Origin: an uncultured SAR116 cluster alpha proteobacterium
GTDB taxonomy: Bacteria > Pseudomonadota > Alphaproteobacteria > Puniceispirillales > Puniceispirillaceae
DNA length: 64,000 bases
Assembly: GCA_902520885.1 (NCBI GenBank)
Contig: CABYPW010000003.1
Location: 62,001-126,000 of the forward strand
Direction: 5' to 3'
Below, in pieces: positions 38,958 through 56,551 of the stretch (the stretch's first letter is position 1; each line of letters opens with the position of its first letter). Below the pieces are notes generated by a model. That model did not search any database and was not told where the DNA came from. It saw nothing but the letters and a program-made list of their open reading frames with translations. The position numbers and the translations under genes were made by a program.

Positions 38958-40029
38958 TTAAAACATCATCCAATTGGTTAAATATAATTTTTAATTCAGA
39001 CAATGGGCGAGCAAAACACAAACGGAAGTGGTCTTTATAATCCTTTCCGAAGACATCACCCTTTAAAAGGAGCACCCCTATTTTTAAAGCCTTGCTTTCC
39101 AACTCAGAGTAATTTTTTACTTTGGGAAAGTAATAAAATGAGCCAACTTGGTTGATAAAATCCCAATTTTGCGATTCCATGAACTTTTTTGTCTCTTTAC
39201 GCTGTTCTATCAGAGATGGCATCTTTAAATTATTTTTTACTGCATTCAATGCCATAATTTGAGCGGGCGCAGGGGCCGAGCTTAGAATTGTTTGATGAAT
39301 ATTTGTAAAATTTTCGGCTAATTTTTTTGGAACTAATGTTGCTGAGACCCTGGCACCTTGAAGAAGAAAATTTTTTGAAAACGAGTCAACAATAAATAAT
39401 TTATCTGAAATCTCACAGGTAGCTTCGGACCACTTTTGTTCATCAAAAATAATTTTTGAGAAGCTTTGATCAATGACTATATAAAAGCCATATTTCTTCG
39501 AAAGTTGAACTAAACCTGAGAGTAAATGGCTGTCATAGATTATACCTGCAGGATTGTTAGGGTTGCTGAATATAATAACTTTAAATTTATTTTCCTTAAA
39601 ACATTGCTCTATTTCGGTAAGATCTAAATTAAATCCATTTGAAAAGTGGGTAGGCATTTCGATTGGCTGGCAGTCTGCAACTTTACAAATGTCAAAGTAA
39701 CTTGGCCACGTAGGAGAGGGTAGTAGAACGCTATCTTGAGAATTAGTGATAGTTTTAAGAATTGCAAATAAAGCAGATTTTGCACCAGCTGAAATAATGA
39801 CTTCGTGTTCGTTATGATCCCAATTGTTAAAAAGGGTTGATTTCGTGTGCTCGATTAATTCAGGCATGCCAGCAGGGTGGGTCAGTTTTCCCCAAGATGG
39901 ATCAGTAGAGAGTGTATCATTATAACTAGGAAGATTAGGAGTCGATAAAGACCACAACTTTTTGTTATCAAGGCTTGCAGCTTTGATTTTTTCTCCAATT
40001 TCTAATGTGGGTGATCTTCTTAATTTCAT
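38947..40029 (-). CDS. Class I/II aminotransferase
   Basis: A 360-residue PLP enzyme: IISAGAKSALFAILKT, PSPTWPSYFDI, FSNPNNPAG with the Asn that contacts PLP, Asp187 in IVIDQSF, PLP-Lys219 in VDSFSKNFLLQGAR and the substrate-carboxylate Arg in FRLCFARP. It is an aspartate-aminotransferase-fold enzyme. Together with the class III aminotransferase it gives the cluster two transaminases; its acceptor and donor are unknown. It lies 17 bases after the permease gene. Confidence 0.88.
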   Translation of the reverse strand: MKLRRSPTLEIGEKIKAASLDNKKLWSLSTPNLPSYNDTLSTDPSWGKLTHPAGMPELIEHTKSTLFNNWDHNEHEVIISAGAKSALFAILKTITNSQDSVLLPSPTWPSYFDICKVADCQPIEMPTHFSNGFNLDLTEIEQCFKENKFKVIIFSNPNNPAGIIYDSHLLSGLVQLSKKYGFYIVIDQSFSKIIFDEQKWSEATCEISDKLFIVDSFSKNFLLQGARVSATLVPKKLAENFTNIHQTILSSAPAPAQIMALNAVKNNLKMPSLIEQRKETKKFMESQNWDFINQVGSFYYFPKVKNYSELESKALKIGVLLLKGDVFGKDYKDHFRLCFARPLSELKIIFNQLDDVLNGK

Positions 40030-40046
40030 TTAAATCATATCTTTCA

Positions 40047-40862
40047 TCAGGCCTTATTTTTGTCTAAATCTGTTTGCTTAAATAATAAAATAAATTGTGC
40101 TATTAGACCTAAGGTTAGCGAGAAAATAAAAACTGCTGTGCCAACAGCATTTATTTTTGGCTCAAAGCCGGTTACCAATGAGGTCCAAATTCTGATGGGT
40201 AAAGTGACCTCGAAGTTAGTTAAAAAATATGCAATAACGAATTCATCAAATGAAAAAGTAAATGTAAGTAATAATGTTGCAAAAATTGAGGGTGCACAAA
40301 TAGGAGCGAGAATTAAAATTATCGATTTAATTCGGCTGGAACCTAAGGAAATCGCAGCTTCCTCCATTGACTTAGGAATTTTATCAATGCGATTTTTTAA
40401 ATTAATAACTGCTAGGGGTAATACATATAAAGTTTGCCCAAGTAAAACTAACCATAGAGCTGGCTCAATCCCAATAGATACAATTTGAAGACGCATTCCA
40501 ATACCAATTAGAATCATTGGTATTACAAGGGGGCATACAACAATGCCAAATAAAAGAGCATGTGCTGGTACTTTTGCTTTGCTGAATGCATAAGCAGCTA
40601 AAAAACCTAAAATGGTTGCAAAAATACTCGCAAGCGATGCCATCATTAGGCTCGTAAAAAAGCTATTAATAAAGCTATTATCGGCTATGAGGCTTATATA
40701 CCATTCGAAAGTTGGTTCTCTAAATGGAAGCGTTTGATATTTCCCACTATTAAAAGAAAAAACTATCATAACTAAAATTGGCAAATATATAACTATCAAT
40801 GACAAACAAAAAAATGCCGTGAGGATTAATAGCATAAATTTATTGACTATTAGTCCGTTCAT
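40047..40862 (-). CDS. ABC transporter permease, PotC type
   Basis: A 271-residue permease starting at ATG 40862, in ATGA overlap with the PotB-type gene; an upstream ATG at 40916 is within that gene. About six membrane segments, the EAA loop EEAAISLGSSRIKSIILILAPICAPS and the downstream FSFDEFVIAYFLTNFEVTLPIRIW segment are PotC-like. It partners the preceding permease for uptake of a polyamine-like or other cationic solute. Confidence 0.88.
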   Translation of the reverse strand: MNGLIVNKFMLLILTAFFCLSLIVIYLPILVMIVFSFNSGKYQTLPFREPTFEWYISLIADNSFINSFFTSLMMASLASIFATILGFLAAYAFSKAKVPAHALLFGIVVCPLVIPMILIGIGMRLQIVSIGIEPALWLVLLGQTLYVLPLAVINLKNRIDKIPKSMEEAAISLGSSRIKSIILILAPICAPSIFATLLLTFTFSFDEFVIAYFLTNFEVTLPIRIWTSLVTGFEPKINAVGTAVFIFSLTLGLIAQFILLFKQTDLDKNKA

Positions 40863-41704
40863 ACACTCACCCTTTTTCTTCGTAGCATTCCGTAAATTAT
40901 AAGAGGTAATCCGCACATGATGACTGTCATTGCAAGGATAATGGCTATAGTTGCTGCCTGAGATAAGTCATAGGTACCTTTCAGAATAGATAACATGATC
41001 TGGGCTAATACCGGTTTTAAACCTCCGCCCAAAAGTGTAGGCACTGCATAATCGCCGACACATACAATGAAAGATAAAAAGATGCCGGCTATCCAACCTG
41101 GGAGGCCAAGTGGAAATATAATATCTTTAAAAATGTTAAAAGGCTTAGCCCCCAAATTCGAAGCTGCCTCAATTAGCTTTGTATCGATGGATACTAGTGC
41201 GCCATAAAGGGTAAAAGTTGTAAGCATTGAACAAAATAATGCCAATCCGAATATTGACGCGTTCATTGTATATAGAATACCTAGAGTAACTGATATTCCC
41301 GTTATTAGTTCAATAAACCAAGCAATTACGCCATTATCAGATAGAACCAGTTGCCAAGAAAATGCCCTAATCGTGAAGCTGGTCCAAAATGGAGCTAGAA
41401 TAGCTAAAAGAAATAAGGGGCGCCATTTCTTATTAACACAAAATACAATGAAATATGCTAGTGGCCAGGCTACTAAACTACCTATTATCGTTGCAGAGAT
41501 GGCTAAAATAATGCTTCGATATAAAGCTTGAGTAAGATGAGGTGTTGAAAAGAAGAGTTTAAAATTATCAAGTCCAATCCCATTTTCAGTGGTAAGACTT
41601 AAAATCACCATGTTAACGGTGGGAATTAAAAAAAACAATATACACAACAACAAGGCAGGTAATAAAAAAGGCCATGGGTTTATTGTGTTAGATGAACCCC
41701 CCAT
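40859..41704 (-). CDS. ABC transporter permease, PotB type
   Basis: A 281-residue permease with about six membrane segments; the EAA loop IEAASNLGAKPFNIFKDIIFPLGLPG and VCVGDYAVPTLLGG region are typical for PotB. It is the first permease of the operon, 4 bases after the cyclase-family gene, and is translationally coupled with PotC. Confidence 0.88.
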   Translation of the reverse strand: MGGSSNTINPWPFLLPALLLCILFFLIPTVNMVILSLTTENGIGLDNFKLFFSTPHLTQALYRSIILAISATIIGSLVAWPLAYFIVFCVNKKWRPLFLLAILAPFWTSFTIRAFSWQLVLSDNGVIAWFIELITGISVTLGILYTMNASIFGLALFCSMLTTFTLYGALVSIDTKLIEAASNLGAKPFNIFKDIIFPLGLPGWIAGIFLSFIVCVGDYAVPTLLGGGLKPVLAQIMLSILKGTYDLSQAATIAIILAMTVIMCGLPLIIYGMLRRKRVSV

Positions 41705-41708
41705 TTTT

Positions 41709-43055
41709 TTACCAGTTTATAATTATTGCTCTCATAGGAGCGCCATCGATACAGGTCATTTTTAGTGGCACCGCTGCCAAAAAGATATTATTATTTTTTA
41801 CCTCTCCGAGGTCTTTCAAATCTTCAATAAAGGGAATACCTGCCTGAAATATTTTATGATGTATTTCAAACTCATGGTTATATACATGCCTACCAGGCAT
41901 TTCTCGAGCAATGAAGTCTTGGGGGAAATCTAAACATATTGCTGCAGGTTGCTTTTCTATAAGCCAATCTGCAGCTGAGGGTTCTATATTTGGAGCGTGA
42001 GTGTGCCAGCGTGTGGACTTGTAGCCGAGGCGGTTTGTTAAATCACTCCTAAGAATGATTCGTTTGTTTTTTCCTATATTACCACCTGAACGTTGTTCAA
42101 GTAATTTTGCGGTTACGGGGGAAGGCAATTTAATATCCGACATATCTATAATAGAAGCATCACCTAAAAAAAGATCCAAACCCATATTAGGAAGTTCCTG
42201 AATAGTTGGTCCCGTTTGCTCCATATGTCTTGGGGCATCACAATGAGTAAATGCATGTCCAGATTGAATATACTGTGTTTGGTCCAAATAACCACTTTCG
42301 TAATTACCTTTTTCACGCCATATTTCCATTCTCCAACGCCAATGGTTTAACAATGGTGTTGAGACATCATATATCGAGGGATTGTCAGAAGGCCATGATG
42401 TTAAGGCCACGGGTCTTGTTGGTGAAGTGGTCATGCCCTCACCTTTTATGGGGAGTGCTAGGAGAAATACCTTGGACTTAATTTGCTCAAGATTGCAAAG
42501 ATTTTCGGTAACTACCAACCCAGCTTGATGCGCTCTATCCCTAAATTCACTGTTAGGGTTGAATATACCATTTGTAAAATCTTCTCTTTTGCTATTAAAA
42601 CTATCACAAGAAAAATCAACGCATATGTTTCTTACCCCTCGTTCAGCGGCAATTTCAGCTATCGCAGGCGCTAGCTTGGGAGTTTGTGTAAAATATTCAC
42701 GTCGTCGAATTGGTATACTACTAGCATGACCTGTTTTAATAATGATTAATTTTGATAGTGGACCAAGTCCAATTTTATTTGTGAAATCACCAGCAGCAAT
42801 AAAACCACTTTTTGCATTTTCAGATAAGTCTATTACTTCAGCTACACCCGCAAAATCGTTAATTTCTAAATCGTCTAATGTTGGTTTATTAGGAAAGTGC
42901 CACCCTGGAGCACTAGCGTAAGTAAATCCCTTACCAGCCCAACGAAGACCAAATTCTTGGAATTCATCACCATCTTGATAAGATTGTGAAACAAGAGGGA
43001 AGGAGTCCCAAAACCAATGAGGTTCAATGGTTTGGGAAAGACTAATATAATTCAT
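41709..43055 (-). CDS. Tandem cyclase-family (kynurenine-formamidase-like) hydrolase
   Basis: A 448-residue cytoplasmic protein that reads as two consecutive cyclase-family domains (about 1-215 and 225-448); family members are usually 210-270 residues. The second repeat has the metal-binding motif HAFTHCDAPRH (His267, His271, Asp273). The equivalent of the first repeat is GFTYASAPGWH (43-53), where the second His and the Asp are Tyr46 and Ser48, so it should not bind metal. The family includes formamidases and isatin hydrolase, which open amide rings; it sits in the polyamine-type ABC operon. The substrate is unknown. Confidence 0.82.
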   Translation of the reverse strand: MNYISLSQTIEPHWFWDSFPLVSQSYQDGDEFQEFGLRWAGKGFTYASAPGWHFPNKPTLDDLEINDFAGVAEVIDLSENAKSGFIAAGDFTNKIGLGPLSKLIIIKTGHASSIPIRRREYFTQTPKLAPAIAEIAAERGVRNICVDFSCDSFNSKREDFTNGIFNPNSEFRDRAHQAGLVVTENLCNLEQIKSKVFLLALPIKGEGMTTSPTRPVALTSWPSDNPSIYDVSTPLLNHWRWRMEIWREKGNYESGYLDQTQYIQSGHAFTHCDAPRHMEQTGPTIQELPNMGLDLFLGDASIIDMSDIKLPSPVTAKLLEQRSGGNIGKNKRIILRSDLTNRLGYKSTRWHTHAPNIEPSAADWLIEKQPAAICLDFPQDFIAREMPGRHVYNHEFEIHHKIFQAGIPFIEDLKDLGEVKNNNIFLAAVPLKMTCIDGAPMRAIIINW

Positions 43056-43070
43056 TTTTTACCTTTTAGA

Positions 43071-43097
43071 TTGATGGCTGCAATTTGCAGCCATCAA
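43071..43097 (-). other. Perfect inverted repeat between binding-protein and cyclase genes
   Basis: A perfect 13-bp inverted repeat: TTGATGGCTGCAA (43071-43083) and TTGCAGCCATCAA (43085-43097) with a single-base centre. As RNA it folds into a strong stem of about 11 bp. It lies 10 bases after the binding-protein stop, and no T tract follows, so it is more likely a stabiliser of the upstream mRNA than a terminator. Confidence 0.75.
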
Positions 43098-43107
43098 TAT
43101 ACTAGAT

Positions 43108-44250
43108 TTATGCGTTTTTAAACTTTTCCCAAGAAGCCATCCACTCGTCGCGATTATCTGGACTCTTCCTAGGAGATAGATTTGCCATAAAGATTTCATC
43201 GAATTTTTCAATATTTGATAAATTCAATAATTCTCTCTTATCATCAGGTAGCATAACAGCGGCCTTCTTATTAGGGACCATACTGTAATAAGTCTTGGCA
43301 ATAGCAAGTTTTGACTGGAAAGCTGGTCCTGTTACATATTGGACAAATTTTACTGCATTATCTTGGTTTGGAGTTGTTGCAGAAACACAAACAGCTTGGT
43401 CCCATGTTACTCCCCCTTGCTCAGGAACAAGAGCTTTGAAAGGGAGACCATCATCATACATACCCGCTTGGACCCATTCACCCGCAATTGCAAGATCATA
43501 TGAGCCACCTGCCATCGCTTGAATTACCTGGCTGGTATTTCCTACGAGTCCAACTTGAGGACGGAGTTTCATTAAAGTATCGTTCAATGCTGAAAATGCG
43601 GCTGAGTCCAAATCATATGGATTAGGATTACCATTGTATTTTGACATACAACCCATATTTGGAAGGAACCAGTCAAAAAGGGCTACTCTGCCTTTCACAG
43701 AAGAGTCAAAAAGGATGTCATAGGAGGAAACATCAGACTCTGAGAATTTTTTATGATTGTAAGTAATACCATAATAGCCAAAGCGATTAACGACCGCGTA
43801 CAACTTTCCAGACTTCCACACAGGAGGCCATTTAGCAATAATATCGAAGTAGTCATCTAATGGGAAATCAGCAGGATTCAGTTCAGCTATTATGCCATCC
43901 TCAATTGCTTTTGGTATGTAAGCGCTAGTGGGTGTAATAACATCAAAAGTTCCCGGTGATGATGTTTGCATTAAGGCAATCATCTCCTCATCCGAACCAT
44001 CATGAATTTTCAAATTCACCTTAATACCAGTTTTTTCTTCGAATTCTGTTAGCATCCCAGGCTCTTCGTAACCGCCGAAAGCTAACACATTCACAGATGT
44101 GGACGCGCTTGCAGTTCTAGAAACGAATGGTGCAGAGAGGCTAACCGCGCCGAGTGCTGCGCCTTGTGCAATAAATTTTCTCCTTGTACCACCTAAGGTA
44201 GCGCTGGGATAATTTAAAACATTTTTTAATTTGGAATAATCATTGTTCAT
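43108..44250 (-). CDS. Periplasmic binding protein, spermidine/putrescine (PotD) type, with Tat-like signal
   Basis: A 380-residue binding protein. The N-terminus carries a twin-arginine signal (TRRKFIAQ at about 22-29, hydrophobic stretch, SRTASAS). The mature part starts VNVLAFGGYEEPGMLTEFEEKTG and has the PotD-like VITPTSAYIPKAIEDGII. Polyamine, amino-acid or other cationic substrates are possible. I start at 44250 because a GGAG lies 6-7 bases upstream of that ATG; the longer start at 44262 would place the ribosome-binding site inside the gene. It is the first gene of the operon. Confidence 0.88.
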   Translation of the reverse strand: MNNDYSKLKNVLNYPSATLGGTRRKFIAQGAALGAVSLSAPFVSRTASASTSVNVLAFGGYEEPGMLTEFEEKTGIKVNLKIHDGSDEEMIALMQTSSPGTFDVITPTSAYIPKAIEDGIIAELNPADFPLDDYFDIIAKWPPVWKSGKLYAVVNRFGYYGITYNHKKFSESDVSSYDILFDSSVKGRVALFDWFLPNMGCMSKYNGNPNPYDLDSAAFSALNDTLMKLRPQVGLVGNTSQVIQAMAGGSYDLAIAGEWVQAGMYDDGLPFKALVPEQGGVTWDQAVCVSATTPNQDNAVKFVQYVTGPAFQSKLAIAKTYYSMVPNKKAAVMLPDDKRELLNLSNIEKFDEIFMANLSPRKSPDNRDEWMASWEKFKNA

Positions 44251-44330
44251 TAAAGTCTCCATGAAAACTTGGTTAAGTTTTTGTCAATTGTTAACATTTT
44301 ACATTTTAGTTAAAAATCTAGCAAACTCTA

Positions 44331-44512: not shown

Positions 44513-44542
44513 CTAATTAATACGAATTAGTAATACGTATTA
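44513..44542 (+). promoter_or_regulatory. Candidate LacI-type operator, two adjacent palindromes
   Basis: CTAATT-N6-AATTAG (44513-44530) is directly followed by the perfect 12-bp palindrome TAATACGTATTA (44531-44542), ending 19 bases before the LacI-family ATG at 44562. This suggests autoregulation of the sugar operon. Otherwise the 311-base gap between the divergent genes (44251-44561) holds only the motif at 44331 and no recognised gene. Confidence 0.5.
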
Positions 44543-44561
44543 ATTAAGGATTATAGATATT

Positions 44562-45569
44562 ATGGGTTTCAATAACGCTACTCAAAAAGATGTTGCAGTT
44601 AGGGCAGGCGTATCTCAAACCACTGTTTCTATTGCACTAAATCCTGAGTCAGAACTAAATATTCCTGTTAAAACAGTGGAAAAAATTCAAAAAGTTGCAA
44701 GAGAGTTAAATTATACACCAAATCGATTCGCTAAAGCTTTACGAACAAATCGAACACAGACATTAGCTTGTATTATTCCCGATATTGCTAATCCTTTTTA
44801 TCCTGCCTTGGTAAAAGGTGTTCAGCGAGCCTCTGAAATATACGATTATGATGTAATCACTCTTAACACGGACGGAATTAAAGAAAAGGAATTGCATTAT
44901 ATAGAATTAGCAAAACAAGGCAGATATGATGGACTTGTTGGAGTTTTTTTTAATCTTGAAGCCAAACATTTTAATGATTTAGCAGAACTAGGTATACCAG
45001 TCGTTCGCCTAGAGTCAAACGCGCGGGCTCAAACTCGGCAATCTTTTGATAACTTATTTGTTGACGATGAGGCTGCATTTGCCGAAATAACTGAGCTTTT
45101 AATTCAGCAGGGGCATCGTGATATCTGCATGATTTCGGGTAAAGGTGGTCCAGAATATTTGCGAGTTTCAGGCTATAAAAGAGCCGTTCAGAAAGCTAAT
45201 ATTAAACCATTTATTCAACTGGAAAAGGATTTTAATGAAGATGGCGGTATCGCGGCTATGCAGGGCATTTTAAGAAGGAAAACAGCACCTTCTGCTATAG
45301 TAGCTGCAAATGATTTGATGGCAATTGGATGTATGAAAGTTATTAGCACAGTTGGTCTTCGTATCCCCGAGGAAATAGTGGTTACGGGTTTTGATAATAT
45401 CCCTGCGGCACAATTGGTTTCACCTTCATTAACAACGATAGATAGGTTTCAAGGAGACATTGCAGAGAGAGCTGCAAAAATAATTATTGGACGTCTAAAT
45501 AAACAAGTTATTGGGCAAGGGCAGACAATAAAACAGCCGTATAAAATTATTCGGCGGAATTCGGCATAG
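44562..45569 (+). CDS. LacI-family transcriptional regulator
   Basis: A 335-residue repressor. Residues 6-55 are the LacI helix-turn-helix and hinge (ATQKDVAVRAGVSQTTVSIAL, LNYTPNRFAKALR); the rest is a periplasmic-binding-protein-like sugar domain (ACIIPDIANPFYPALVKGV, IVAANDLMAIGCMKVI, VTGFDNIPAAQLVSPSLTTI). It is the first gene of the sugar ABC operon, 22 bases before the binding-protein gene, and likely represses the operon until the sugar appears. Confidence 0.93.
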   Translation: MGFNNATQKDVAVRAGVSQTTVSIALNPESELNIPVKTVEKIQKVARELNYTPNRFAKALRTNRTQTLACIIPDIANPFYPALVKGVQRASEIYDYDVITLNTDGIKEKELHYIELAKQGRYDGLVGVFFNLEAKHFNDLAELGIPVVRLESNARAQTRQSFDNLFVDDEAAFAEITELLIQQGHRDICMISGKGGPEYLRVSGYKRAVQKANIKPFIQLEKDFNEDGGIAAMQGILRRKTAPSAIVAANDLMAIGCMKVISTVGLRIPEEIVVTGFDNIPAAQLVSPSLTTIDRFQGDIAERAAKIIIGRLNKQVIGQGQTIKQPYKIIRRNSA

Positions 45570-45591: not shown

Positions 45592-46911
45592 ATGATAATT
45601 AAAAACATATTTTACAGTATCATCGCCTCGTCGATTTTATTTTCAGCAGCAGTGAATGCGAAAACAAACGTGATATGGTGGGAATACTCAGAGGAAGGAA
45701 GTGGACTTAATGACGCTTTAGTCAAATATATTCAGGATGGGTTCAATCAATCACAAGATAGTGTGAATTTGGAGATCATTTTCAAAGAGGGAGAATATAA
45801 CGAGGCGACGAGAACGGCATTATTAGCAGGTGTTGGACCAGATATTGTCTCTTCTTCTGGAGCAACTTATGTTGCAAAATATGCTTCAGGGGGTTTTTTA
45901 ATGTCTCTTGAAGAGGTTGCAGAAAAAAATGGTTGGAAGGATAAGATACTTCCATGGGCTTATAACACAGGCGTATTTGGTGGTGAATTATACTCGCTTC
46001 CAAAAAATTATGAGAGTATGCTTTATTTTTACAATAAAACATTATTTGAAGAAAATGGGTGGTCGTTGCCAACAAACCTTGGAGAATATGAAGAACTTGC
46101 CGAAAAGGTCCAGGCAAAGGGAATGTATCCATTCGCATATGGTTCCTCAGGATGGCCCATGACACATGAGCATCTAGCGGGAAATTATCTAAATACTGTT
46201 GCGGGACCAGACAGCGTATATAAGGCAATGATTGGCGAAAAAGAATGGACAGCTCCAGAGTTTGTCGAGGCCCTCGAGTTGCTTAAAAAACATATGATGG
46301 CTGGATATTGGTCAGGAAGTCTCGAAAATTACTATGCTGTAGGTTGGGATGATTTTTCAGCTCAATTCCACAACAGAGAGGCCGCTATGCTACAAATAGG
46401 CTCTTGGGGCTTTGAGATCGCAACGGCACTTGAAGGTGATGAATGGGGTTGGGCGCCACTGCCGATATTAACTAATGATGGTGGTGAACCAAACTATCAA
46501 CTATCGGTAGGAGGCACTTTATCAGTAAACGCTGCCAGCAAAAACAAAAATGCAGCAGCAGAAGTTTTAAATTGGATTGTATCTAATAGAGAGACAATAG
46601 TGGAGTTCACAAAAAGTAGAAATTTTGGAGCTTGGTTAATGCCGTTGTATTATGAAGCATCCGATTTTGGGGATGATGTTGACCCTAGACTTAGAGATTA
46701 CCTTGTAGATTTTTCAGAAAGAACAGGAAATGGTCACTATGGGTACACAACTTGGACTTATTACCCGCCTGAAGCTGGTACACATATCTGGAAGGATATG
46801 GAGGTTGTTTGGGCAGGAGATATCACAGTAAAAGATTTCCTAGCTGAGCAACAAAAACTTTGGGAAAAAGCAAGAAAGAATGACGAACTTCTTCCTATTG
46901 CTGCAAGATAG
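45592..46911 (+). CDS. Sugar ABC transporter substrate-binding protein (CUT1 family)
   Basis: A 439-residue family 1 extracellular binding protein with a signal peptide (MIIKNIFYSIIASSILFSAAVNA). Mature features are NVIWWEYSEEGSGLNDALVKYIQDGFNQSQ, GVGPDIVSSSG, YSLPKNYESMLYFYNKTLFEENG and the aromatic-rich FGAWLMPLYYEASDFG. It should bind an oligosaccharide, disaccharide or polyol. The gene is cotranscribed with LacI upstream and the two permeases downstream. Confidence 0.9.
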   Translation: MIIKNIFYSIIASSILFSAAVNAKTNVIWWEYSEEGSGLNDALVKYIQDGFNQSQDSVNLEIIFKEGEYNEATRTALLAGVGPDIVSSSGATYVAKYASGGFLMSLEEVAEKNGWKDKILPWAYNTGVFGGELYSLPKNYESMLYFYNKTLFEENGWSLPTNLGEYEELAEKVQAKGMYPFAYGSSGWPMTHEHLAGNYLNTVAGPDSVYKAMIGEKEWTAPEFVEALELLKKHMMAGYWSGSLENYYAVGWDDFSAQFHNREAAMLQIGSWGFEIATALEGDEWGWAPLPILTNDGGEPNYQLSVGGTLSVNAASKNKNAAAEVLNWIVSNRETIVEFTKSRNFGAWLMPLYYEASDFGDDVDPRLRDYLVDFSERTGNGHYGYTTWTYYPPEAGTHIWKDMEVVWAGDITVKDFLAEQQKLWEKARKNDELLPIAAR

Positions 46912-46926
46912 ACAAACATAGGAGAG

Positions 46927-46950
46927 ATGGAGTCAATTAAATGGCTCCAT
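46927..46950 (+). other. Hairpin covering the permease ribosome-binding site
   Basis: ATGGAGTC (46927-46934) pairs with GGCTCCAT (46943-46950) with one G-U pair and an 8-base loop. The left arm contains the GGAG nearest the permease ATG (46941-46943), which itself sits in the loop, so the ribosome-binding site could be masked and permease translation kept below that of the binding protein. Confidence 0.45.
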
Positions 46951-47837
46951 TTCATTTTCTGATGAGACATTTATCAAATAGAGAACTATCAAGCTGGTTT
47001 TTTCTTGCGCCGGTTATTTTGATACATATGCTTGTCGTAGCTATTCCCTCAATATCCAGTTTGGCTCTATGTTTCACTGATTGGAATGGCTTTGGCAAAA
47101 TTAATTTCGTTGGCTTTGACAACTTTATTGAGCTTTTTGATGATCGCGTGTTTAAAAAAGCGATTATACATAATTTAATTTGGACAGCTCTCTTTCTAAC
47201 CATACCAATTGTATTTGCATTAATGGCTGCGTTTCTTCTAACTGGTATTAGGCGCTTCCAGATGTTCTACAGGTTTGTATTCTTTTTCCCTTATATTTTA
47301 GCCAGCATCGTTAACTGCCTCATCTGGAAATACTTATTTCACCCCATTCATGGCCTTACGTCTTTTTTTAACAGTATTGGATGGGAATCACTCGCAACTT
47401 CGCCCCTCACAACAAAAGAGACCTCTCTCTACGCTGTAGCTTTTGTCGATGGTTGGCATTTTTGGGGATTTTTAGTGGTAATATACATTACGGCTATGTA
47501 TCAAGTTGATGAAGATCTATATGAGGCTGCTGATATTGAGGGAGCCTCTAAATGGCAAAAATTTAAATATGTTACATTTCCATCGATAAGGCCAATGTTC
47601 TTATTCTCGTTTTTGATTATTATTATTTGGTCAGTACCAGCTTTTGATTACGTATATATCCTTACTTCAGGTGGGCCAGCCTATAGCTCGGAGGTAGTAG
47701 CCAATTTTATGTATTTTGAAGCTTTTAGAAATATGAACGTGGGGTATGCTTCCGCTGTGGGTGCTCTAATGTTCATATATGTTTTCTTTGTACTCGGTTT
47801 TTTTTGGTCCCTACGGAAATTAGGTTGGGAAATATAG
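46941..47837 (+). CDS. Sugar ABC transporter permease 1 (CUT1, MalF/UgpA type)
   Basis: A 298-residue permease with six membrane segments. The EAA loop YEAADIEGASKWQKFKYVTFPSIRP and the VILIHMLVVAIPSISSLALCF first helix are typical. It forms the channel with the next permease, 3 bases downstream. Confidence 0.9.
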   Translation: MAPFHFLMRHLSNRELSSWFFLAPVILIHMLVVAIPSISSLALCFTDWNGFGKINFVGFDNFIELFDDRVFKKAIIHNLIWTALFLTIPIVFALMAAFLLTGIRRFQMFYRFVFFFPYILASIVNCLIWKYLFHPIHGLTSFFNSIGWESLATSPLTTKETSLYAVAFVDGWHFWGFLVVIYITAMYQVDEDLYEAADIEGASKWQKFKYVTFPSIRPMFLFSFLIIIIWSVPAFDYVYILTSGGPAYSSEVVANFMYFEAFRNMNVGYASAVGALMFIYVFFVLGFFWSLRKLGWEI

Positions 47838-47840
47838 CCG

Positions 47841-48683
47841 ATGGCTGTTTATTCTAAGAAAACAAAAGCGGCGATAGGCAATCATGTAATATTGATGCTT
47901 TTAGCTCTAATAATCATTTTGCCAGTTTTAGTATTATTATTTAACTCTATCAAGCCTGATGAGGAGTTCGGTGTAAATCCTCTGGGGTTTCCTCAAACTG
48001 TAAGACTAATGAATTATTATGATGCGTTTGTAGCGGGTAATTATGCTAAGATCATGGTAAATTCAATTTTGCTTGTTGCTGGAACACTTGCAGTCTGCCT
48101 TACTTTTTCAAGTTTAGCAGCTTTCAGTTTAGCGGTGCTAAACCCAAACGGTAAATCGACAATTATGATCGGAATCTATTTATTAGTTGGGCTGAGTATT
48201 CCCGCGCAACTTTTTATATTACCTTTATTTATTATCTGGAAGAACTTACATCTGAATAATACTTATGTCGGATTAATCATTATATATAGTGCGTTAAATG
48301 CCCCTTTTGCGGTTTTCCTTATAAGAAGTTATATGATTCAACTTCCAAAAGAATTATTTGAAGCTGCAATAGTGGAGGGTGCGTCAACTATCCAATTGTT
48401 TACGAGAGTGGCTCTTCCTTTATCTTGGCCTGTTTTTCTTACAACTGGTTTAGTGGTAAGTTTAGCAGTTTGGAATGAATTTCTATTTGCGGTAACTTTT
48501 ATTCACAATGAAGAGTTCAAACCCATATCTTCAATTTTATATTCTTTTCAAAATCGAAGAGACGAAAATTATGCATTAATTAGCGCTGCCTCTGTTATGA
48601 TGGCGGCACCATTAGCAGTATTATTTATTTTATTTCAAAGAAATTTCATAGCTGGTCTGACTAGTGGTGGAACAAAGGGATAA
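47841..48683 (+). CDS. Sugar ABC transporter permease 2 (CUT1, MalG/UgpE type)
   Basis: A 280-residue permease with six membrane segments and the EAA loop FEAAIVEGASTIQLFTRVALPLSWP. It partners permease 1, and the ADP-ribosylglycohydrolase-family gene follows after 2 bases, indicating cotranscription. Confidence 0.9.
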   Translation: MAVYSKKTKAAIGNHVILMLLALIIILPVLVLLFNSIKPDEEFGVNPLGFPQTVRLMNYYDAFVAGNYAKIMVNSILLVAGTLAVCLTFSSLAAFSLAVLNPNGKSTIMIGIYLLVGLSIPAQLFILPLFIIWKNLHLNNTYVGLIIIYSALNAPFAVFLIRSYMIQLPKELFEAAIVEGASTIQLFTRVALPLSWPVFLTTGLVVSLAVWNEFLFAVTFIHNEEFKPISSILYSFQNRRDENYALISAASVMMAAPLAVLFILFQRNFIAGLTSGGTKG

Positions 48684-48685
48684 AT

Positions 48686-50860
48686 ATGGAACTTGGCAAT
48701 ATCTATCAGGAAAAAGTTTATGCTGGGGTACTTGGAAAGATCATTGGTGTTTATCTGGGTAGACCATTTGAACAGTGGACGCATGATACTATTATTCAAA
48801 GGCTCGGTGAAATAAATTACTATGTAAATGATAAACTAAATAAACCATTAGTTGTCACAGACGATGATATTACTGGAACATTTACTTTCTTACGTGCTCT
48901 TAAAGACTATGATAGTCTGCTTGATATTGAGCCATGGCAGATTGGTCAAACTTGGCTAAATTATATCGTTGAGAACGAGACTATATTGTGGTGGGGTGGT
49001 GTCGGAGAATCTTCGGAACATACAGCCTACCAAAATTTAAAAAATGGAATATTAGCTCCTCAGAGTGGCTCGATAGAACAGAATGGAAAAATTGTAGCTG
49101 AGCAGATAGGTGCCCAAATATTTATTGATGGTTGGGCAATGGTTTGTCCTGGAGACCCTGAAAAAGCCTCTCAACTTGCAGGGAAAGCAGCAAGCGTTAG
49201 TCATGATGGTGAGGCGGTGAATGCTGCAAAACTTCTGGCGGCCCTAGAGTCTTATGCGTTTGTTGAAAGCGAGGTTTCTAAGCTTTTAAAAGTTGCAAAA
49301 ACATTTATTTCACCCGAATCCAAAATAGTTAAATTGATAAATGATATCGAGGAATGGCATTCTTTAGAAAAAGACTGGAAGAAAACAAGAAAAAATATTG
49401 ATATTCATTATGGCTATCATAAATTTCCTGGTGGTTGTCATATCATTCCCAACCACGCCCTAATTATTTTATCCCTTTTATATGGCGAGGGTAATTTTAA
49501 TCAGACTATGAAAATTGTTAATACTGCTGGGTGGGATACAGATTGTAATTCTGGCAATATAGGTTGTCTAATAGGAATCAAGAATGGTCTAAGATGTTTC
49601 GAGGGTAAAAACGATTGGAGAGGTCCAATCGGTGACATTATGTATTGTCCTACGGCAGATGGCTCTCAGACTATCACTGATGCATTAACCGAAAGCTACA
49701 AAGTTATAAAATTAGCTAATAAAATTAGGGGTCAGGATTTTCAGCTACCTAAAAACGGTGCGCGCTATAATTTTGAGATGCCTGGCGCGTTGCAAGGTTG
49801 GGTAGGCACTATAAAAAATCAAATTGAAAATAATTCTTTTATACATTTAACCAATGTAAATAAAAATAGTATAGCAGGGAAACGAACTCTAGAGATAGCA
49901 TATCAGCTTAATCCAAATGAAACTGGGAAAGTTTTTACCCATTCTTTTTTCCCTGAAGAATTAACAAAATTAGAGGGTGAACAAAAAAAGACTTTTTTCA
50001 GTTATAATTTTCTTTGCAGTCCACAAATTTATTCAGGTCAAACGATTGAGGTAGAATTAATTTCTGATGCTAACAATGAGCAAGCTGTAGTTTTATGTCT
50101 TTTTGTGAATGCTTACTCGGTAGAGGACTCAAAAACGACCTTGAAATCAGAATTAAAAATGTTAGAGCCTGGAAAGACAATTAAATTTGACTGGGTTCTA
50201 GACGTTCCAGATTCTTTTCCAATAACAGAGGTTGGGGTTGAAATTTGCCCAAATGAGAAAAATGAAGTTGCTAAAATTTATTTAGATTATATGAAAATTT
50301 CTGGAAAAGCCTCAACGAAATTTTTGCGACCAGACCATGTTAAACCTTTGGCAAGAGGCGAAGTGCCAGACGAAAAAGTAGCCGTTATGTGGCGAAAAAG
50401 TTGGATAAAAGCTTGTGACCATTGGACGGATCGTTCTTGGGAACCTGCCTTTAAAATTAGCAATAATAAAGGGAGGGGGCTCATTCTGACTGGTTCATCT
50501 GAATGGTGCGATTATTCTGTTTCGTCTGAAATTAATTTTTATCTTGGGAAATCAGGGGGTGTAGCTGCTAGGGTACAGGGGTTACAAAGATACTATGCTC
50601 TGGAATTAGTTAACGATGGAACATTGAGATTAGTTAAGGTGCAAGACGGGATCTCGGTGTTATGTCAGTGCAGTTATTCATTTGAATTAAATCGCAGCTA
50701 TAAATTTGAGATAATTGTTTCTGGGAGTATCATAAAAGGAAAAATTAATTCAGCGTTAATGCTAGAATATGAAGACCAAACAAAACCACTTTTGAGTGGT
50801 GCAATAGGGCTTATTGTGGAATCAGGAACTATCTTTTCTGACGTTGTTGAAGTTACATAA
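48686..50860 (+). CDS. ADP-ribosylglycohydrolase-family protein with two C-terminal beta-domains
   Basis: A 724-residue soluble protein without a signal peptide. Residues 1-345 are an ADP-ribosylglycohydrolase (ARH/DraG-like) domain with both metal motifs: TDDDITG (58-64) and GWDTDCNSGNIG (282-293, Asp284 and Asp286). About residues 360-560 look like a jelly-roll carbohydrate-binding module; about 570-724 resemble a concanavalin-like (DUF1080/LamG) domain (GGVAARVQGLQRYYALELVNDG). It is the final gene of a LacI-controlled sugar ABC operon, so I infer that the family fold acts here on an imported glycoside or ribosyl compound rather than on proteins. The true substrate is unknown. Confidence 0.8.
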   Translation: MELGNIYQEKVYAGVLGKIIGVYLGRPFEQWTHDTIIQRLGEINYYVNDKLNKPLVVTDDDITGTFTFLRALKDYDSLLDIEPWQIGQTWLNYIVENETILWWGGVGESSEHTAYQNLKNGILAPQSGSIEQNGKIVAEQIGAQIFIDGWAMVCPGDPEKASQLAGKAASVSHDGEAVNAAKLLAALESYAFVESEVSKLLKVAKTFISPESKIVKLINDIEEWHSLEKDWKKTRKNIDIHYGYHKFPGGCHIIPNHALIILSLLYGEGNFNQTMKIVNTAGWDTDCNSGNIGCLIGIKNGLRCFEGKNDWRGPIGDIMYCPTADGSQTITDALTESYKVIKLANKIRGQDFQLPKNGARYNFEMPGALQGWVGTIKNQIENNSFIHLTNVNKNSIAGKRTLEIAYQLNPNETGKVFTHSFFPEELTKLEGEQKKTFFSYNFLCSPQIYSGQTIEVELISDANNEQAVVLCLFVNAYSVEDSKTTLKSELKMLEPGKTIKFDWVLDVPDSFPITEVGVEICPNEKNEVAKIYLDYMKISGKASTKFLRPDHVKPLARGEVPDEKVAVMWRKSWIKACDHWTDRSWEPAFKISNNKGRGLILTGSSEWCDYSVSSEINFYLGKSGGVAARVQGLQRYYALELVNDGTLRLVKVQDGISVLCQCSYSFELNRSYKFEIIVSGSIIKGKINSALMLEYEDQTKPLLSGAIGLIVESGTIFSDVVEVT

Positions 50861-50898: not shown

Positions 50899-51984
50899 CT
50901 AATAACTTGAGATTAACAGTCCATCCGAGTTAAAAACATGGCATTTTGCCGGGTCAAAACCTACCTCTACGATGTCCCCTACGTTAATTTTACTTTCACC
51001 CTTTGTTTCAGCTATGAGCGGTTCACCCTCTTTTTCAACATAGAGAAAGGTACTAGAACCGAGGCGCTCGACAATTATGACTTTTCCCTTCCAGCTTTTG
51101 AAGTTCCCTGAGTTTACAGACAAATCTTCGGGTCTTACACCTAACCTTATGTTTTCACCAATTTGTATCTTATCTACTGAGCCTTGAACGTTGAGATTGA
51201 TCGAATTCATAAAATCAATCTCAAACCCTTTTGAGGACTTTTTTGAAATTTTTGAGTCTATCAGGTTCATTTTGGGGGAACCTATAAATCCACCTACAAA
51301 TTCATTAGCTGGATTTTTATATAAGTTTAAAGGCTTTCCGATTTGTGATACTTCTCCCTTATCCAATACAACAATTTCGTCAGCCATAGTCATAGCCTCA
51401 GTTTGGTCGTGTGTTACATATACCATTGTTGCTCCAATTTGATCGTGTAGTCTAGCAATTTCAACACGCATTTGCACCCTCAGGGCTGCATCTAAGTTTG
51501 ATAATGGTTCATCGAAAAGAAATACTTTTGGTTTTCTTATGATTGCTCTACCAATAGCCACTCTCTGTTTTTGACCGCCAGATAATTGTTTTGGTTTTCT
51601 TTTTAATAAATCTTCTATTTGGAGAATTTTTGCTGTTTCGTAAACTCGTTCTTTAATTTCATTTTTTGGTCTTTTTTCGATAGTAAGGCCGAATGCAATA
51701 TTTTCAAAGACAGTCATGTAAGGGAATAAAGCATAGGATTGAAAAACCATTGCCACGCTTCTCTTTTTTGGTTCAAGATCATTAACAACATTTTTATCTA
51801 TAGAGATTGTTCCCTCATTAATCGTTTCCAGTCCCGCGATCATTCTTAACAAAGTAGACTTGCCACACCCGCTAGGACCTACAAGCACTGTAAATGAACC
51901 GCTATTTATATTTAGAGAGACATTCTTGATGATGTGTTTATCGTCAAACCATTTATTTACGTTATCCAACTTAATATTGGCCAT
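50899..51984 (-). CDS. Sugar ABC transporter ATPase (UgpC/MsmK/MalK type)
   Basis: A 361-residue ATPase: Walker [10 protein letters not shown], signature LSGGQKQR, Walker B FLFDEPLSNLDAALR, switch THDQTEAMTMAD, and an OB/TOBE-type C-terminal half (from about 235). The ATPase of the CUT1 system at 45592-48683 is missing from that operon, and this gene, encoded in opposite orientation and converging on its end, is the natural candidate. Separate transcription would let it serve several permeases. Confidence 0.9.
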   Translation of the reverse strand: MANIKLDNVNKWFDDKHIIKNVSLNINSGSFTVLVGPSGCGKSTLLRMIAGLETINEGTISIDKNVVNDLEPKKRSVAMVFQSYALFPYMTVFENIAFGLTIEKRPKNEIKERVYETAKILQIEDLLKRKPKQLSGGQKQRVAIGRAIIRKPKVFLFDEPLSNLDAALRVQMRVEIARLHDQIGATMVYVTHDQTEAMTMADEIVVLDKGEVSQIGKPLNLYKNPANEFVGGFIGSPKMNLIDSKISKKSSKGFEIDFMNSINLNVQGSVDKIQIGENIRLGVRPEDLSVNSGNFKSWKGKVIIVERLGSSTFLYVEKEGEPLIAETKGESKINVGDIVEVGFDPAKCHVFNSDGLLISSY

Positions 51985-54039: not shown

Positions 54040-54777
54040 TTATTTTTTGAATTTAAAACTAGGAAGAGTGGAAAGACTTTCCTTAAGTGCTTTTCCCCAC
54101 TCGTTCGAAATCATATTAAAGTAGGCGTCATCATTTTTTATTTTTATGGATGGACGCGATCTAAAGCTATCTTTTTCATATGTATGAATATCAAGAGGCA
54201 ACCCAACAGTTAAGTTAGCTTTGATGGTTGAATCGAAAGACACCATTAAAAGCTTGATTGCATCTTCAAATGTCATTTCAGGATAAAAACCCCTTACTAA
54301 TATTGGACGCCCATATTTTGTCTCTCCAATTTGAAAGAAGGGATTTTCTTCGGAAACTTCTATGAAATTTCCTTCTGGGTAAATTAAATAAAGACGTTGG
54401 TCACTACCCTTTATTTGTCCCCCCAAAATAAATGTTGCAGAGAATGAGTTGTCTCCTTTTTGCTGGCCCTTCGCAGTAACATCGATGATTTCCGCCAATG
54501 TCTCACTCACTGTTTTGGCTACTTGAAACATAGTCGGCGCTTGAAGAATAGACGGAAAGCGCTCGTTTTTTTCTTTGGTTTGCTCTGACAGAGTGCTAAT
54601 TACAGCTTGACTAGTTGCTAAATTTCCAGCAACTGAAAGGAAAATTTGCCTTTCTCCCTTAATTCCCCATGAAAATGTTTTTGGATATCTAGAAATGTTA
54701 TCAAGCCCGCCATTCGTCAGGGTATCCGACATAAAAATTAGACCATGTGAAAGTTTTAAGGCTACGCAATATGACAT
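54040..54777 (-). CDS. Anbu, proteasome-type beta-subunit homologue
   Basis: A 245-residue protein of the Anbu/HslV-like Ntn-hydrolase family (COG3484 type). After loss of Met the N-terminus would be Ser-Tyr-Cys; Asp17 (MSDTLTNGG) and Lys32 (YPKTF) are spaced as expected for the active site, followed by the family-typical VAGNLATSQAVISTL and GRPILVRGF. The usual N-terminal Thr is Ser here, which can still act as a nucleophile. Anbu proteins self-assemble into ring- or lock-washer-like structures; their substrates are unknown. It is the fourth gene of the ATP-grasp/alpha-E/transglutaminase operon, 18 bases after the third. Confidence 0.9.
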   Translation of the reverse strand: MSYCVALKLSHGLIFMSDTLTNGGLDNISRYPKTFSWGIKGERQIFLSVAGNLATSQAVISTLSEQTKEKNERFPSILQAPTMFQVAKTVSETLAEIIDVTAKGQQKGDNSFSATFILGGQIKGSDQRLYLIYPEGNFIEVSEENPFFQIGETKYGRPILVRGFYPEMTFEDAIKLLMVSFDSTIKANLTVGLPLDIHTYEKDSFRSRPSIKIKNDDAYFNMISNEWGKALKESLSTLPSFKFKK

Positions 54778-54795
54778 AAATGATCTCTCTTTAAA

Positions 54796-55632
54796 TTATT
54801 GTTCAGTAATAACTATATTCGTTAACAACCTTTCACTACCGCTACCTTGTCTCACCCCTGATAAAGGAATTACATCATTATAATCGAAACCTGTCGCTAA
54901 TTTGATATATTTATCGTCGGGTGAAATTCCATTGGATATATCGAAACCTACCCACCCCAGCCCATCAAGGTAAACCTCAGCCCAAGCATGGCTGGCCTCT
55001 TGAATAATATTATCGCTTATCATTAAGTACCCACTCACATACCTAGAATAAAATCCAAGAAGCCTTGTAGCACTTAAGAATACGTGTACATGGTCTTGAC
55101 AAACACCTTCACCTAATTCCAACGCTTGCTCAGCAGTCGTCCTTATATTAGTTTTTCCTTTTACATATTGAATTTTTTTTCTAATGATAAAGGATAATTC
55201 GTGCAATAGTGTAATATCATCGCTTGACCCTTTCCGCTTAAGTTTACCCATTTTTGAGCACAAAATTTTAATTCTTTTACCGGGAGCAGTTAACGCCGTC
55301 GGTCTGCTGAATAAAATGATTGGTAAATTGCCATCATCGGTTCCAACTACTCCAAATGTATTTTCCACTTGCACAATTCCACTGCAAGAAATGGTGATCC
55401 CATCTGAAATCAAATCATACTTGCATAAATGAATTGTATTACCATGATAATCTTTACTTTTGAATTCTAAATTGGCTCCCTCAATCTTTATGTTCCAATC
55501 GATAACTTTTTGGGTTGCATTAGATATTGGGCTTAAATGCAGTTTTTGTATCACAGATTGAGGAATTTCCTCAAATTCATATGTGGTTTGGTGTTTAATT
55601 GAGTACAGCATTCTATCAAAAATTAAAGTCAT
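54796..55632 (-). CDS. Transglutaminase-like cysteine peptidase-fold protein
   Basis: A 278-residue protein (the ATG at 55611 gives 271 and matches the usual N-terminus M-Y-I-H-TTY better). The triad is visible: Cys in GEGVCQDHVH, His in ASHAWAEVY and Asp in VGFDISNG. The N-terminal 150 residues are the beta-rich domain of the COG1305 group. The fold can make or break amide bonds. It overlaps the alpha-E gene and belongs to the conserved ATP-grasp/alpha-E/transglutaminase/Anbu set. Confidence 0.9.
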   Translation of the reverse strand: MTLIFDRMLYSIKHQTTYEFEEIPQSVIQKLHLSPISNATQKVIDWNIKIEGANLEFKSKDYHGNTIHLCKYDLISDGITISCSGIVQVENTFGVVGTDDGNLPIILFSRPTALTAPGKRIKILCSKMGKLKRKGSSDDITLLHELSFIIRKKIQYVKGKTNIRTTAEQALELGEGVCQDHVHVFLSATRLLGFYSRYVSGYLMISDNIIQEASHAWAEVYLDGLGWVGFDISNGISPDDKYIKLATGFDYNDVIPLSGVRQGSGSERLLTNIVITEQ

Positions 55633-56551
55633 TACTAATCTTTTGATTCAAGGTATTAATTTGAATGATCAGATTTGAAATAAAGTTCCTTAAGTCTATT
55701 TTGTTTTCATTTGCAACAGATGATACATTTAAATCACTAAATAATTTATTACTTAACTCACTTGAATCATAGAGCTTACTGTATGTAACTGCCAAGTCAT
55801 CCAGGTTTTCTTTTAACTCCTTTACGCAAAAAAATATGGACCTAGGCATTCTTTTATCAAAAATAAGAAAATCTGAGATTTCATTTGGTTTAAGGCGTCC
55901 TGTTTTAAGCCAGTTGAATGACCGCCAAGCCGAGAGTGAACGTAATAAAATTTCCCATTGAGGTTTATCTTCCTGCCCTCCAATTGTAGTGGCGGTTTCA
56001 AGTAGCAAGTAATATTTTTCGTTTATCGCTCTGGCTGTATTGTCAGCACGCTCAATAAAAGTTCCCAAGCGCAGAAAATTGAAAATATCATTATGTAACA
56101 TTGTCCCATATAGAGAGCCCCGAAAAAGAGAACTACCTTTCACAATATCCTCAAGAATTATAGGTAAATTTTGTATACTTACTTGACGTTTTAGAGAATA
56201 TTCGCAATTTATCCAACATTCATTCAATGATTGCCATACTTCTTGGGTTAAATATGCTCTAACTGAACGCCCGTTTTGTCTAGCGTTACTCATTAATACT
56301 ACAATACTATTTAAGTTTTTTCGGTCCCTAAGAAGAAAATTAATTACGTTAGTCATGGATCTATTTTCGTATGATAGATTAAAAGTATCGTGAAAGCCGC
56401 TCACTGCGACAATGGAACCCCATTCATCGTGGTCCTCATCTTTATGAGATAGGTGGTGATGGAGCGTAGCTTGAATGCGTCTCGCATTATTTTCGCTTCT
56501 CTCCAGATAGCGAGCCATCCAATATAAATTATTTCCATGTCTTCCGAGCAT
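55616..56551 (-). CDS. Alpha-E domain protein (COG2307)
   Basis: A 311-residue all-helical protein that begins MLGRHGNNLYWMARYLERSE, the typical start of the alpha-E family (DUF403), and continues with RNLNS-like helical segments, NARQNGRSVRAYL and LRLGTFIERADNTARAI. Its biochemical role is unknown; Iyer et al. proposed a function with the adjoining ATP-grasp in making or tagging peptides. It abuts the ATP-grasp stop without a gap and overlaps the transglutaminase gene. Confidence 0.9.
   Translation of the reverse strand: MLGRHGNNLYWMARYLERSENNARRIQATLHHHLSHKDEDHDEWGSIVAVSGFHDTFNLSYENRSMTNVINFLLRDRKNLNSIVVLMSNARQNGRSVRAYLTQEVWQSLNECWINCEYSLKRQVSIQNLPIILEDIVKGSSLFRGSLYGTMLHNDIFNFLRLGTFIERADNTARAINEKYYLLLETATTIGGQEDKPQWEILLRSLSAWRSFNWLKTGRLKPNEISDFLIFDKRMPRSIFFCVKELKENLDDLAVTYSKLYDSSELSNKLFSDLNVSSVANENKIDLRNFISNLIIQINTLNQKISNDFNF

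Follow-up and report, generated by a model that had tools for sequence, protein, structure and literature searches.

The window analyzed here, a 64,000-nucleotide stretch of DNA from an uncultured SAR116 alphaproteobacterium, encodes a three-domain protein of the ADP-ribosylglycohydrolase (ARH) fold family that, on balance, we believe to be a cytoplasmic glycoside hydrolase built on the ARH scaffold and acting on an imported glycoside. The ARH fold and the CUT1 operon are already known, while the DDD/C signature of the metal site, the fusion to two domains of the carbohydrate-binding module (CBM) type, and the link to sugar operons mark the SAR116 protein as a new variant.

The SAR116 ARH gene closes a LacI-CUT1 operon

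The ARH gene is the last gene of an operon that reads lacI, solute-binding protein (SBP), permease, permease, ARH on one strand, with intergenic gaps of 22, 29, 3, and 2 bp (Table 1). The initial annotation had described a LacI-controlled CUT1 operon ending in an ARH gene, and this arrangement was confirmed. A LacI regulator, an SBP_bac_1 protein, and two BPD_transp_1 permeases are encoded together, and a MalK/UgpC-type ATPase is available from a convergent gene that probably completes the transporter and that the initial annotation had left out. The closest solved relatives of the binding protein are chito-oligosaccharide and other sugar binders (best E value, 1.1e-18), and its resemblance to chito-oligosaccharide and maltose binders is just distant. 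The ARH domain scores 161.5 bits against the PF03747 model (residues 14 to 303; curated cutoff, 26.2 bits), and the SAR116 genome contains one ARH gene. Searches of the whole protein against NCBIfam, PADLOC, and PHROGs gave no useful match. As annotated before, there is no signal peptide: by eye, the N terminus (MELGNIYQEKVYAGVLGKIIG...) already forms the first ARH helix.

Four of the 10 genus genomes carry the full-length ARH gene, which is absent from the 51 genomes that represent other genera of the family, and a check for horizontal transfer found no GC anomaly at the gene. Orthologs of the UgpC-type ATPase, with 83 to 85% identity, are present in exactly the other three ARH-bearing members of the genus, while the genomes devoid of ARH harbor at best a paralog of about 53% identity (4/4 with ARH versus 0/6 without). 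The restriction of these orthologs to ARH-bearing members favors the ATPase as part of the system, and the convergent gene is the probable ATPase of the ARH-operon transporter. A UgpC-type gene also adjoins ARH on the same strand in many relatives.

The palindrome preceding lacI, an inverted repeat that is 94% complementary, is predicted to act as the LacI operator, and its AATACGNATTA units are kept in all four ARH-bearing members of the genus. A wider LacI regulon was considered and dropped, since the sole perfect match to the operator pattern elsewhere in the genome (C4:94124) lies within a 946-aa open reading frame (ORF) and the genome-wide search allowing up to 2 mismatches returned fewer matches than the reversed control. 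A local, self-regulated operon would be the simplest reading.

Elsewhere in the window, inspection by eye revealed a minus-strand run (54040 to 56551) of proteasome-like (Anbu-type), transglutaminase-like, and alpha-E-like genes. A second minus-strand cluster (38947 to 44262) encodes, again by eye, an aminotransferase, a pair of permeases of the spermidine/putrescine type, a cyclase-like protein (448 aa), and a binding protein whose leader is Tat-like; its gene order is identical in loci L006 and L007.

Table 1. Features of the ARH operon and of related loci (window positions unless a locus is given)
Feature	Position	Strand	Description
Predicted LacI operator	44514-44546	.	33-bp palindrome, TAATTAATACGAATTA / TAATACGTATTAATTA; directly upstream of lacI
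LacI-family regulator, operon gene 1	44562-45569	+	335 aa; PF00356 E 1.1e-12, PF13377 E 3.5e-26
CUT1-type solute-binding protein (SBP_bac_1)	45592-46911	+	439 aa; signal-peptide-like N terminus; PF01547 E 5.8e-27
CUT1 permease 1 (BPD_transp_1)	46941-47837	+	PF00528 E 9.5e-10; GlcT/UgpA-like
CUT1 permease 2 (BPD_transp_1)	47841-48683	+	PF00528 E 1.6e-17; GlcU/UgpE/MalG-like
Three-domain ARH-fold protein, predicted cytoplasmic	48686-50860	+	724 aa; ATG start; without internal stops
ARH catalytic-type domain	48725-49594	+	Residues 14-303; PF03747 E 4.5e-47
First metal motif	48860-48868	+	DDD59-61 (ARH3 T76-D77-D78; Thr to Asp)
Second metal motif	49532-49546	+	WDTDC283-287 (D284, D286 = ARH3 D314, D316; C287 for T317)
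Domain 2, CBM-type beta-sandwich	49754-50308	+	Residues about 357-541; AlphaFold2 model, Foldseek, VIA-align
Domain 3, CBM66/LamG-like beta-sandwich	50438-50839	+	Residues about 585-718; family profile versus PDB
UgpC/MalK-type ATPase, convergent with operon	50899-51984	-	PF00005 E 1.5e-37; PF08402 TOBE; NF008653 (UgpC subfamily) above cutoff
Rhizobial second short TDD-type ARH	L013:10756-11958; L014:10681-11961; L032:7737-8960; L037:7756-8961		
DDD-clade ARH with hydrophobic signal-peptide-like leader	L095:7063-9051	-	
DDD-clade ARH with hydrophobic signal-peptide-like leader	L097:7865-9238	-	
DDD-clade ARH with hydrophobic signal-peptide-like leader	L098:7889-9307	+	

A DDD/C signature replaces the threonine ligands of the metal site

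In ARH3, the ligands of Mg-A are T76, D77, D78, and D316, those of Mg-B are D314, D316, and T317, and D77 and D314 also contact the ribose 2''- and 3''-OH (PMC8141533); E41 is likewise a ligand of the metal site (PMC8319183). In our ARH alignment, on whose residue register MAFFT and the profile HMM concur, the acidic ligands of ARH3 (E41, D77, D78, D314, and D316) are kept in the SAR116 protein as E29, D60, D61, D284, and D286, and the residues touching the two ribose hydroxyls are retained with them. Both threonine ligands, however, are replaced, T76 by Asp59 and T317 by Cys287, so that the earlier description of the metal motifs as intact holds for the acidic ligands and fails for the threonines. 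Furthermore, the segment EQIGAQIF stands in place of the NGxxMR segment that is common to other ARHs, including DraG. The initial annotation had overlooked these departures from the ADP-ribose hydrolases, which affect two metal ligands and the NGxxMR segment.

Neither of the two positions is occupied by Thr or Ser in the three-domain proteins, all 18 of which carry DDD/C, and E29, D59, D60, D61, H173, D284, and D286 are invariant across this clade. Among 80 ARHs, DDD is paired with C, N, or S at the position of residue 287 in 25 of 25 cases, and T/S-DD is paired with T or S in 40 of 40. When 77 ARH domains were placed on a tree, a branch of length 1.68 with a support of 100/100 separated the DDD proteins from the rest, and a further branch (support, 100/98) set off the 18 three-domain proteins. 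One TDD-type ARH of our sample matches DraG structures at 4e-74, and YegU of Escherichia coli is of the TDDT/DTDT type, indicating that the DDD branch does not include the better-known relatives. Judged by these comparisons of sequences, the DDD signature marks a deep clade separate from DraG- and YegU-type proteins.

The two additional domains have folds of the CBM type

The region following the ARH domain had been described as two beta-rich, carbohydrate-binding-like domains for which structure prediction of residues 350 to 724 was proposed, and both domains were recovered. Modeling succeeded in part: a full-length AlphaFold2 model built from four sequences reached a pLDDT of 45.7 and was excluded from the fold search, whereas domain 2 refolded alone (residues 355 to 545) gave a pLDDT of 75.1 and a pTM of 0.72 and adopted a CBM-type fold. 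Foldseek matched this model to 2c26, a CBM44 structure, with an E value of 6e-7, followed by CBM11, CBM22, and CBM4. VIA-align superimposed it on 2c26 with a Z score of 14.8 (145 residues; rmsd, 2.5) and on CBM4, CBM22, and CBM11 with Z scores of 12 to 13, several families thus lying within a few Z units of one another. Domain 2 has no Pfam match.

For domain 3, a profile of 18 homologs searched against the PDB matched, over about 135 residues, the levanase module 4b1l/4azz/4b1m, known as CBM66, with E values of 1.6e-7 to 1.9e-7. This match needs the family profile, as phmmer with the single SAR116 sequence returned only MJ1187 from the PDB (E value, 0.017), and Pfam gave a weak lectin hint at the C terminus of the SAR116 protein. 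The best homolog matches PF21708, the GH59 lectin domain, in this region (E value, 2e-6), and single homologs also match the models for Laminin G and for 3-keto-disaccharide hydrolase. The folds of domains 2 and 3 are of kinds typically seen in carbohydrate-binding modules, and we infer that the domains bind carbohydrate.

Three-domain ARHs are associated with sugar operons in distant bacteria

Full-length three-domain homologs with 29 to 46% identity occur outside the genus, in other Alphaproteobacteria (genomes G597 and G381), in Rhizobium, Ensifer, Sinorhizobium, Agrobacterium, Phyllobacterium, and Nitratireductor, as well as in Deinococcus aetherius (two copies) and on a plasmid of Enterobacter hormaechei. 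Marker genes for LacI and/or for CUT1 permeases or binding proteins lie beside ARH at 17 of the 18 three-domain loci, and these 17 span Alphaproteobacteria, Deinococcus, and Enterobacter. The lone exception, Agrobacterium sp. 33MFTa1.1, has kept UgpC and carries an IS6 transposase immediately upstream. The initial annotation had named homologs lacking any sugar-operon association as evidence against its reading, which this distribution leaves standing.

As a comparison, we sampled 40 ARH loci (PF03747) from Pseudomonadota, 37 of which are non-DDD. With the same markers, none of the 37 had LacI or CUT1 permease/binding-protein neighbors, a count to be read with the caveat that short TDD-type ARHs of rhizobia do lie in sugar operons. 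The difference (17/18 versus 0/37) corresponds to a Fisher P value of 2.6e-13, which takes no account of kinship or of how the relatives were found. Conversely, none of 40 control CUT1 loci contained an ARH gene.

Two of these settings have features of their own. In rhizobial sugar operons, a second, short TDD-type ARH directly precedes the three-domain ARH, so that two branches of the family are found in one operon. In E. hormaechei (L011; CP103578.1, 330570 to 356663), a LacI-ARH-SBP set is located between chiP and glnS; no permease is annotated there alongside LacI and the annotated binding protein. The 517-kb plasmid bears a chromosome-like block (seqA, fur, glnS, and nag genes) around the set.

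Neighboring genes and the putative substrate

The neighbors of DDD ARHs vary. In Mycolicibacterium, the gene adjoins CUT1 genes and a ribokinase gene; in Flammeovirga, rbsK and a GRP sugar transporter; and in Halostella, ABC transport genes, a nucleoside hydrolase, and a PfkB-like ORF. Among the DDD ARHs with leader sequences, one in genome G294 has as neighbors GH94, an MFS_2 transporter, and a gene resembling gluconokinase, and one in G246 adjoins an arabinofuranosidase and GH43. Such leader-bearing members (Table 1) suggest that ARH-fold proteins may also act outside the cytoplasm. One of the Deinococcus three-domain copies is accompanied by GH2 and MGH1-like glycosidases and the other by ribokinase, and GH2/MGH-like proteins, an aldo/keto reductase, and a CoA transferase are found next to different relatives. 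This variety makes a single substrate for all of them unlikely. The SAR116 ARH operon itself encodes no kinase and no second catabolic enzyme that would bear out a sugar pathway.

Ribokinases (best matches, TIGR02152/PRK11142) lie in or near the ARH cluster in Deinococcus, Agrobacterium, Rhizobium leguminosarum, Mycolicibacterium, and Flammeovirga. A strong linkage to ribokinase was first assumed and then weakened by the 40-locus CUT1 control: ribokinase-like genes were found near DDD ARHs at 6 of 20 loci versus 4 of 40 control loci (P = 0.07), the control (n = 40) having used BLAST markers at an E value of 1e-12, which distant kinases can escape.

From its context, the SAR116 protein is likely a hydrolase of an imported glycoside. 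Our best guess for the substrate, the least certain part of this proposal, is a furanoside, i.e., a ribo-, arabino-, or fructofuranosyl compound. This guess follows from the retained contacts to the ribose 2''- and 3''-OH, from the relatedness of domain 3 to levanase CBM66, which is no demonstration of fructoside binding, and from the presence of ribokinases, a nucleoside hydrolase, and an arabinofuranosidase cluster among the neighbors of the DDD clade.

Proposed mechanism and alternative functions

In the proposed mechanism, the CUT1 ABC importer, made up of the binding protein, both permeases, and the UgpC-type ATPase, would take up a small glycoside, and the LacI repressor, bound at the 33-bp palindrome, would switch the operon on once the compound is present. 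The two CBM-like domains would hold the substrate while the ARH domain cleaved its glycosidic bond at a two-metal center that the T-to-D and T-to-C changes have presumably re-tuned. The catalytic step and the identity of the inducer belong to the conjectural part of this scheme. An intracellular ARH-fold hydrolase had already been suggested in the initial annotation, and that suggestion gains from the conserved sugar-operon link and from the carbohydrate-binding folds of the extra domains. Extending the proposal, the whole DDD branch could constitute an unrecognized glycoside hydrolase family whose two-metal center, re-tuned by T-to-D and T-to-C/S/N changes, cleaves imported or extracellular furanosides in sugar-utilization loci of Pseudomonadota, Deinococcota, Actinomycetota, Bacteroidota, and haloarchaea; we regard this as a serious possibility that falls a little short of being probable.

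A catabolic riboside hydrolase, which would split a ribofuranoside or a nucleoside-like compound after import and pass the ribose on to ribokinase, seems unlikely to us. The ribokinase genes in or near the clusters of five genera fit such an enzyme, as do the nucleoside hydrolase that accompanies a DDD ARH in Halostella, the conserved ribose-contacting residues, and the ribokinase of the SAR116 genome, which sits elsewhere in a nucleoside-type operon. However, the control described above narrows the contrast in ribokinase frequency, and within the query's own group of 40 to 46% identity, ribokinase occurs at one Deinococcus locus only. In addition, CUT1 importers usually carry oligosaccharides rather than nucleosides.

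We find it improbable that the protein acts as a conventional ADP-ribosyl hydrolase, with an incidental place in the operon, and would, for example, reverse ADP-ribosylation of the transporter or the regulator. Its PF03747 domain does possess every acidic metal ligand, and DraG, too, undoes a modification by which a metabolic enzyme is controlled. Nevertheless, both threonine ligands and the NGxxMR segment are altered throughout the three-domain clade, CBM-type domains are fused to the enzyme, the gene is tied to sugar operons, and no ADP-ribosyltransferase is found among the annotated neighbors of the relatives. Least credible of all is a loss of catalysis that left a cytoplasmic sugar-sensing or scaffold protein of the transport system: the two CBM-like domains, the Thr-to-Cys change at a metal ligand, and the status of ARH as the only candidate enzyme of the SAR116 operon would agree with it, but the seven invariant residues of the three-domain clade are unexpected after catalytic loss, and in other species ARH accompanies further sugar enzymes.

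A search of open-licence papers on ARHs with sugar operons, ribokinase, LacI, or polysaccharide utilization found no catalytic work on the DDD branch. Annotation routinely gives the name "ADP-ribosylglycohydrolase" to PF03747 proteins, and if the DDD branch cleaves sugars, a whole subfamily is misnamed. Such an activity of the branch would also add a class of metal-dependent glycosidases to carbohydrate metabolism and would provide a marine SAR116 uptake system with a testable substrate. The replacement of the two threonines by Asp59 and Cys287 provides a sharp test of what sets ADP-ribose hydrolysis apart from general glycoside hydrolysis on one fold.

Comparison with known systems

The SAR116 protein shares with DraG and with human ARH3 and ARH1 the PF03747 fold family and the Glu and four Asp residues of the two-metal center. 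It differs by Asp59 and Cys287 in place of T76 and T317 of ARH3, by EQIGAQIF in place of NGxxMR, by its two CBM-like domains, by its sugar-operon context, and by its position in a separate deep clade.

A parallel in gene context is E. coli YegU, a protein of unknown function encoded in the yegTUV operon, which belongs to the GgaR/YegW regulon and is tied by regulation to glycogen accumulation (PMC10819704). There too, an ARH gene adjoins a transporter gene, and yegTUV also contains a putative sugar kinase gene (PMC10819704). YegU differs, however, in being a single-domain protein with the TDDT...DTDT motifs that groups with the non-DDD ARHs, and the transporter and regulator belong to other families.

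The additional domains also have counterparts in known proteins. Domain 2 shares its beta-sandwich with CBM families 44, 22, 11, and 4 (Z scores of 12 to 15 over about 145 residues), although identity is just 8 to 16%. Domain 3 finds its counterpart in CBM66 of Bacillus subtilis levanase (profile match, 1.6e-7), but there the module is part of a levanase, whereas in SAR116 it is carried by a cytoplasmic ARH.
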